Assembly (NCBI GenBank): GCA_031289615.1
Contig: JAITPD010000010.1
Location: 53,569-117,568, forward strand
Direction: 5' to 3'
DNA: 64,000 nt
Origin: Lactobacillaceae bacterium
GTDB taxonomy: Bacteria; Bacillota; Bacilli; Lactobacillales; Lactobacillaceae
Every line of letters starts with the position of its first letter. Position 1 is the stretch's first letter. The position numbers were made by a program, and so were the translations under genes. Under the pieces are notes generated by a model. The model was not told the origin of the DNA and made no database searches. It worked only from the letters and a program-made list of their open reading frames with translations. Below are positions 36,274-37,265 of this stretch, one piece after another.

Positions 36274-36543
36274 TTAATCTTCACGAATTCCGTTCTCACG
36301 CTGAAATTTTTTAACTTTTTCAGGCGTAACTTCCTTGCCGTCCTTGTCAAAAACTTGGAGCATTTCAACTTGTGAACGAAACGCTGCTCGAAAATTTTCC
36401 AAGAACTCAGCGCGTAAATCAATCCGCTCTGCTTCCTCTTCAGCCGTTAACCCAGCTGGGGTCTTCGCTTTTGCAGCTAGTTCGTTGATTCGCGCCCGAA
36501 CAGCTAGCATATGTGTATCTTCTGCCAAACTAATGTCCTCCAA
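36274..36543 (-). CDS. DUF896/YnzC family protein
   Basis: INELAAKAKTPAGLTAEEEAERIDLRAEFLENFRAAFRSQVEMLQVFDKDGKEVTPEKVKKFQREN. Confidence 0.9.
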   Translation of the reverse strand: MEDISLAEDTHMLAVRARINELAAKAKTPAGLTAEEEAERIDLRAEFLENFRAAFRSQVEMLQVFDKDGKEVTPEKVKKFQRENGIRED

Positions 36544-36622: not shown

Positions 36623-36634
36623 GAACATACGTAC
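36623..36634 (+). promoter_or_regulatory. LexA (Cheo-type) box GAACATACGTAC with upstream TATAAT
   Basis: Close to GAACNNNNGTTC, just downstream of TATAAT (36615-36620) in the lexA promoter. Confidence 0.65.
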
Positions 36635-36653: not shown

Positions 36654-37265
36654 ATGGTGCGCAGTGAAGAAAAGCAATTGAATGTGCTCCGTTTCATATA
36701 CGAAGCAAAACTTAAAAATGGATTCCCGCCGACCGTCCGTGAAATTGGCGAAGGAATGGGCATGACCTCTCCTTCGACAGTGCATGGTTACATGGATCGC
36801 TTGCGTTCTAAGGGTTATTTGAATCGCGATCCAACAAAGCCCCGTGCACTTGAGATTACAGCTGCTGGAATGACTGCCATGGGAATTCACGAAAATCCGA
36901 CCGTACCTTATTTCGAAGGTGACTGGCCGCAATTTGATCCACAAACTGCTTCAAGAATTGTCTTACCAGACAGTTTGGCCCGTTTTGCCGGTGAACTTTT
37001 TTTCATGCGCATGTCTGGTTCCAATATGCAAAAAGTGGGCATTTTTGACGGAGATGACCTCTTTATTCGTCAACAAAATGATGCTGAAAACGGTGAAATC
37101 GTGGCTTACATCAGCACTGATCAAAGTGTCAAGATCGCCCGCTTTTTCCGTGAACGAGCTCAATACCGGCTTCAACCTGAAAACGATAACGTCGCACCAG
37201 AAATATTGTTTGAATTAACCGTGATTGGTCGTGTCATCTCGCTATTTAGAAATTCAATTTATTAA
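36654..37265 (+). CDS. lexA: LexA-type repressor with degenerate autocleavage residues
   Basis: GFPPTVREIGEGMGMTSPSTVHGYMDRLRSKGYL wHTH and LexA C-terminal fold FDGDDLFIRQQNDAENGEIV...RLQPEN. Confidence 0.92.
   Translation: MVRSEEKQLNVLRFIYEAKLKNGFPPTVREIGEGMGMTSPSTVHGYMDRLRSKGYLNRDPTKPRALEITAAGMTAMGIHENPTVPYFEGDWPQFDPQTASRIVLPDSLARFAGELFFMRMSGSNMQKVGIFDGDDLFIRQQNDAENGEIVAYISTDQSVKIARFFRERAQYRLQPENDNVAPEILFELTVIGRVISLFRNSIY

Follow-up and report, generated by a model that had tools for sequence, protein, structure and literature searches.

The lexA gene of the DNA stretch analysed here (64,000 nucleotides, hereafter the window) raises the question of how a bacterium controls its SOS genes when its LexA appears to lack the means of self-cleavage. 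The 203 aa ORF at 36654-37265 was found on the forward strand as the first-pass annotation had described it, and it is a lexA ortholog. Its product scored above the equivalog cut-off of TIGR00498 (NCBIfam lexA; 127.2 bits against 110.95) and matched both LexA_DNA_bind (PF01726) and Peptidase_S24 (PF00717). The AlphaFold model (pLDDT 89) had the LexA fold, and its best PDB matches were all LexA. In Bacilli, lexA commonly has a DUF896/YnzC gene next to it. A small divergent ORF upstream, which we take to be DUF896/YnzC-like and for which a homologous reading frame was seen in the aligned upstream regions of the genus, therefore supports the orthology. The features of the locus are given below.

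36274..36543, reverse strand: small ORF divergent from lexA, presumably DUF896/YnzC-like (ORF list)
36623..36634, forward strand: GAACATACGTAC, the putative LexA box of the first-pass annotation; chance-level match, not conserved (consensus match and PWM)
36654..37265, forward strand: lexA ortholog with an apparently inactivated S24 peptidase domain, 203 aa (ORF, family matches, AlphaFold model)
36669..36848, forward strand: winged HTH of the LexA DNA-binding domain (residues 6-65) with its recognition helix, TSPSTVHGY, retained (PF01726, 65.1 bits)
36897..36944, forward strand: expected Ala-Gly cleavage region, residues 82-97, PTVPYFEGDWPQFDPQ, without Ala-Gly (alignment to intact LexA)
37023..37025, forward strand: catalytic Ser column, occupied by Asn124 (AAT; alignment)
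37137..37139, forward strand: catalytic Lys column, occupied by Ala162 (GCC; alignment)

We aligned the protein with solved LexA structures and with about 14 LexA proteins of Bacilli (Leuconostoc, Convivina, lactobacilli, Enterococcus, Listeria, Staphylococcus, Bacillus). The first-pass annotation had described a LexA with an intact HTH in which the catalytic Ser was replaced by Asn, the catalytic Lys by Ala, and the Ala-Gly site was missing, and the alignment bore out this description. GMSM of E. coli aligned unambiguously to GSNM, which places Asn124 in the Ser column, and TVKRF aligned to KIARF, which places Ala162 in the Lys column. The Ala-Gly columns held a gap or -E, and the HTH retained its recognition-helix residues. 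Neither the Ser-Lys dyad nor the cleavage site was restored by comparison with these proteins and structures, and the prediction that the window LexA is unable to self-cleave is strongly supported. A shifted dyad of Ser123 and Lys160 might keep weak self-cleavage at another bond, given that Ser123 lies directly before Asn124 and Lys160 two residues before Ala162, and that Lys160 is present in the window LexA and its three closest relatives. We give this very little weight, because neither Ser123 nor Lys160 is found throughout the genus, and because the Ala-Gly bond is absent; the canonical positions, moreover, vary freely in the genus.

Loss of the self-cleavage residues extends through the genus and is no peculiarity of a single strain. 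The genus of lactic acid bacteria concerned, probably Weissella, was sampled with 28 genomes, the window's own and 27 others; the closest umuC match was to a W. cibaria plasmid (69.7% identity). The lexA gene was present in 25 of the 28 and was not found in three high-quality genomes (G002, G015 and G024). No protein among the 24 aligned LexA sequences had both catalytic residues, the canonical Ser being kept in 4 and the canonical Lys in 6, and Ala-Gly was found in none of the 24. The Ser column held N, A, T, S, H or D, and the Lys column A, G, Y, K, L, D or S. An in-frame TGA interrupted lexA at locus L026, and the proteins of L027 and L028 were truncated. Out-group LexA was intact in about 110 loci: some 105 of 110 matched the intact motifs automatically, visual inspection covered the motifs of L029, L031, L080, L098 and L129, and at L092 and L097 Lys and Ala-Gly alone were visible. 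When 300 family genomes were searched, the LexA profile scored above 212 bits among the matches listed, as against 127 for the window LexA. Weak or no LexA matches were obtained from four Lactobacillaceae outside the genus (G184, G044, G060 and G054), possibly independent losses.

In five closely related species of the genus, whose LexA kept Lys and had Ser replaced by Ala, lexA dN/dS was 0.006-0.02 (about 0.01) in the HTH and the C-terminal domain alike, with dS near saturation in several pairs and in a subclade other than the window protein's own, in which the sequences have diverged too far for this measure. Strong purifying selection therefore maintains LexA in this subclade at the least, and for that reason the retained LexA probably has a non-SOS role. 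In other subclades of the genus lexA was truncated or lost.

The LexA-like box that the first-pass annotation had placed ahead of the gene did not hold up. GAACATACGTAC matched 7 of 10 consensus positions, and exactly 7 was the best match in 28% of shuffled promoters. A PWM derived from the lexA operators of relatives, which themselves have a median score of 19.7 bits, gave it -4.7 bits, a chance-level value, and it was not found in the lexA promoters of the closest relatives. When a box was called at 8 or more of 10 consensus positions, with shuffled promoters as control, 108 of 110 out-group lexA promoters carried a canonical box, against 3 of 25 in the genus and 15 of 500 shuffles. No conserved operator was recognised in alignments of the genus lexA promoters from three subclades, and canonical GAAC-N4-GTTC was not above chance in the genus recA and umuC promoters.

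A surviving canonical LexA regulon in the genus was considered and rejected. The window's own genome had 4 GAAC-N4-GTTC sites, none of them ahead of repair genes, and the complete genome G009, scanned with the out-group LexA PWM, yielded 12 sites at the 5% training level, almost all of them within genes. The sole strong intergenic LexA-like palindrome in G009, AGCGAACGTACGTTCGCT (G009:C1:1477574), precedes a 370-aa secreted protein and is possibly a leftover LexA target or a hairpin. The 4 sites of the window's own genome compare with 43 for the reversed control, and similarly few were seen in G022 and G012. Most related genomes had 10-30 such sites, and the scarcity in the own genome, G022 and G012 may reflect restriction avoidance. 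A second LexA or HdiR was likewise ruled out there. The own genome was searched for another lexA, as the first-pass annotation had proposed, and its only other S24 matches were two signal peptidases; no second HTH- or UmuD-like S24 protein was found in it.

The promoters of recA and umuC have a different inverted repeat in common across the genus, TTAAGTTWAACTTAA, and the three genomes without lexA have it as well. The palindrome also occurs in part of the genomes at the uvrB and uvrA promoters and ahead of the gene of an XRE repressor. An operator search of the own genome and G009 returned recA, umuC, uvrB, uvrA, dnaE and the XRE gene, where the names uvrA and dnaE were assigned by eye and dnaE carried the operator in the own genome only. 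Because the exact pattern TTARGTTNNACYTAA was barely above its reversed control across the genus, we used a PWM test, in which a palindromic matrix trained on the XRE promoters alone was applied to other genes with the 95% shuffle level as threshold. Scores above this level were obtained for recA in 27/27 promoters, umuC in 26/27 and uvrB in 10/28; for lexA the count was 1/25 and for dinB 1/27. Among the 1643 promoters of G009, umuC ranked 2, XRE 4, recA 7, uvrB 8, uvrA 18 and lexA 1349. Matches of at least 13 bits in G009 were intergenic in 12 of 15 cases (13% expected, p = 9e-9), and all 8 matches of at least 15 bits were intergenic, where random genomes gave 0-2 such matches. Random Markov genomes gave 9-14 matches of at least 13 bits against the 15 in G009; what sets G009 apart is the position of its matches and the top scores.

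These promoters bear on whether LexA might still repress the SOS genes through an altered box, being derepressed by other means such as a separate protease, a ligand or degradation. The strongly conserved HTH, with T42, V43 and G45 invariant across the genus, and the purifying selection in one subclade would fit such a role. However, the recA/umuC box also stands in the genomes without lexA and is nearly absent from the lexA promoters themselves, and the recognition-helix residues are as in canonical LexA, a reader of GAAC and not of TTAAG. We therefore consider continued repression by LexA quite unlikely. The first-pass annotation had predicted either loss of RecA-triggered SOS or another way of derepressing LexA. 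Its premise of a disabled LexA stands, and in place of either outcome we favour a third, that the SOS genes have left LexA.

Two further observations were made among the boxed promoters. The top-ranked box of G009 (G009:C1:1385058, L234) stands before the gene of a 126-aa protein that has no Pfam match and by eye resembles YolD-like umuC partners. Besides dinB, genomes G017 and G018 each have about four genes for umuC-like polymerases, and several of these have box-like promoters.

The XRE repressor gene lies outside the window, elsewhere in the same genome (G000:C51), and overlaps the gene for an IrrE/ImmA-like protein; because of this overlap, the partner gene shares the boxed promoter. A TTAAGTTWAACTTAA-type box of its own precedes the XRE gene, which suggests autoregulation. 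The XRE protein matched HTH_3 with 43 bits, and its PDB sequence matches included DdrO_C (E 8e-4). The partner, of 152 aa, consists of the protease-like domain alone and has no Pfam match itself. It matched PHROG 87, 'metallo-protease', Peptidase_M78 matches were obtained for 9 of 18 of its orthologs (best E 0.001), and hhalign gave 97% to an M78 protein. The top Foldseek PDB matches of its AlphaFold model were Deinococcus PprI/IrrE (probability 0.98-1.00, E about 0.01). The model thus points to an M78/IrrE fold and to a remote homology with IrrE. TLVEExxH was invariant in the partner (28/28) and HExxH was absent, so that the first zinc ligand His is replaced by Glu, and proteolysis by the partner is uncertain because its zinc motif is EExxH and not HExxH. 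EExxH also occurs in a related protein of the out-group that was scored as Peptidase_M78.

All 28 genus genomes have the pair, including the three without lexA, and the partner profile gave only 9 weak matches in about 375 other Lactobacillaceae. The one out-group match inspected was a repressor/Peptidase_M78 pair of a kind that occurs on mobile elements. Since the pair is present throughout the genus and nearly absent elsewhere in the family, the genus with a disabled LexA is also the pair-bearing genus. The ImmA-like protein was not matched in phage and plasmid records, and three IMG/VR matches to it stood at contig ends, probably as host flanks. In about 17 genomes (e.g. L261 and L267), a gene with its own box, for a small protein that has a single hydrophobic segment, lies downstream of the ImmA-like gene. 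The protein is a candidate damage-induced division inhibitor, and it is absent from this place in the window's own genome.

The pair could be an unrelated phage-derived module and LexA a decaying relic of an SOS response that is simply being lost, which is how the missing, truncated and TGA-interrupted lexA genes might be read. Such decay agrees poorly with the low dN/dS of both LexA domains in the five species, with the presence of the pair throughout the genus and with its operator upstream of recA and umuC in nearly every genome, and we regard it as unlikely. We consider it likely, on the evidence of promoters and gene distribution, that a DdrO/IrrE-like system of an XRE repressor and an ImmA-like partner has replaced LexA as the DNA-damage switch of the genus. 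In the proposed mechanism, the XRE repressor would bind TTAAGTTWAACTTAA ahead of its own gene, recA and umuC; its regulon would, depending on the species, also include uvrB, uvrA and a few further genes. DNA damage, the presumed signal, would activate the ImmA-like partner, the repressor would be cleaved or otherwise removed, and the genes would be expressed. Alternatively to cleavage, the partner may disarm the repressor by binding, as reported for Rir/Crh (PMC7907104). LexA, released from its SOS job, would then have lost the Ser-Lys dyad and the cleavage site, and three species would have lost lexA altogether; where retained, LexA may be a constitutive DNA-binding dimer with another role. 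Stated in full, and as a reading that we find reasonably probable, a Bacillota genus would have swapped its SOS master switch: a domesticated phage-type XRE/ImmA-like module, its phage origin being presumed, acquired control of recA, umuC and uvr genes by way of a new operator, and the displaced LexA, without self-cleavage, was kept under strong selection as a stable non-SOS regulator.

The IrrE(PprI)/DdrO system of Deinococcus controls a radiation-desiccation response, and recA is not LexA-controlled there (PMC5552922, PMC7907104). Like it, the system of the genus combines an XRE-family repressor with a COG2856/M78-type partner (PMC5552922, PMC7907104) and has a palindromic operator before recA, uvrA, uvrB and the repressor gene itself. 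In contrast to Deinococcus, the operator sequence is different, the partner gene overlaps the repressor gene, and the genus belongs to Bacillota, not Deinococcota. The partner has EExxH in place of HExxH and, at 152 aa, no room for the C-terminal GAF-like domain of IrrE. An XRE repressor next to an ImmA-type protein of the same small size class also occurs in ImmR/ImmA of ICEBs1 and in phage XRE/ImmA modules (Rir/Crh, MpaR), which respond to stress and control mobile elements (PMC10233336, PMC7907104), whereas the pair of the genus is core-genome and its operator stands before host recA, umuC and uvr genes. LexA of Synechocystis PCC 6803 has its catalytic Ser replaced and no Ala-Gly, and is thought to have left SOS (PMC3091678). 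LexA of the genus similarly lacks Ala-Gly, and the window protein its catalytic Ser, but here a whole genus and not a single cyanobacterium is concerned, with a candidate replacement regulator. Francisella FddR (phage-like; PMC13148647) and Acinetobacter UmuDAb (PMC11332147) run the DNA-damage response instead of LexA, and FddR sets a precedent for a phage-like takeover by a regulator of another protein class. Those regulators are of S24 type, while the candidate in the genus is of XRE/ImmA type and no further HTH-S24 protein was found in the own genome.

For Deinococcus it is documented that an XRE/IrrE-type pair controls recA and uvr genes; for Bacillota we found no such report. No description of such a system, and no paper linking Weissella with XRE/IrrE-type control, was found in the open-access literature searched. 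With members that have one catalytic LexA residue, neither, or no gene, the genus is a natural experiment in the replacement of a master regulator, and it allows one to test whether ImmA-type proteins act as DNA-damage sensors in a circuit that spans the host, and what function a LexA that cannot be cleaved serves. DNA-damaging antibiotics and prophage-inducing treatments should act through a different switch in these food bacteria. In two loci of G009 the operator, at 1501-1515 in each, lies in the promoter of an integrase-like gene on the reverse strand (428-1354 in L241, 399-1496 in L243), as if mobile elements listen to the damage signal of the host.
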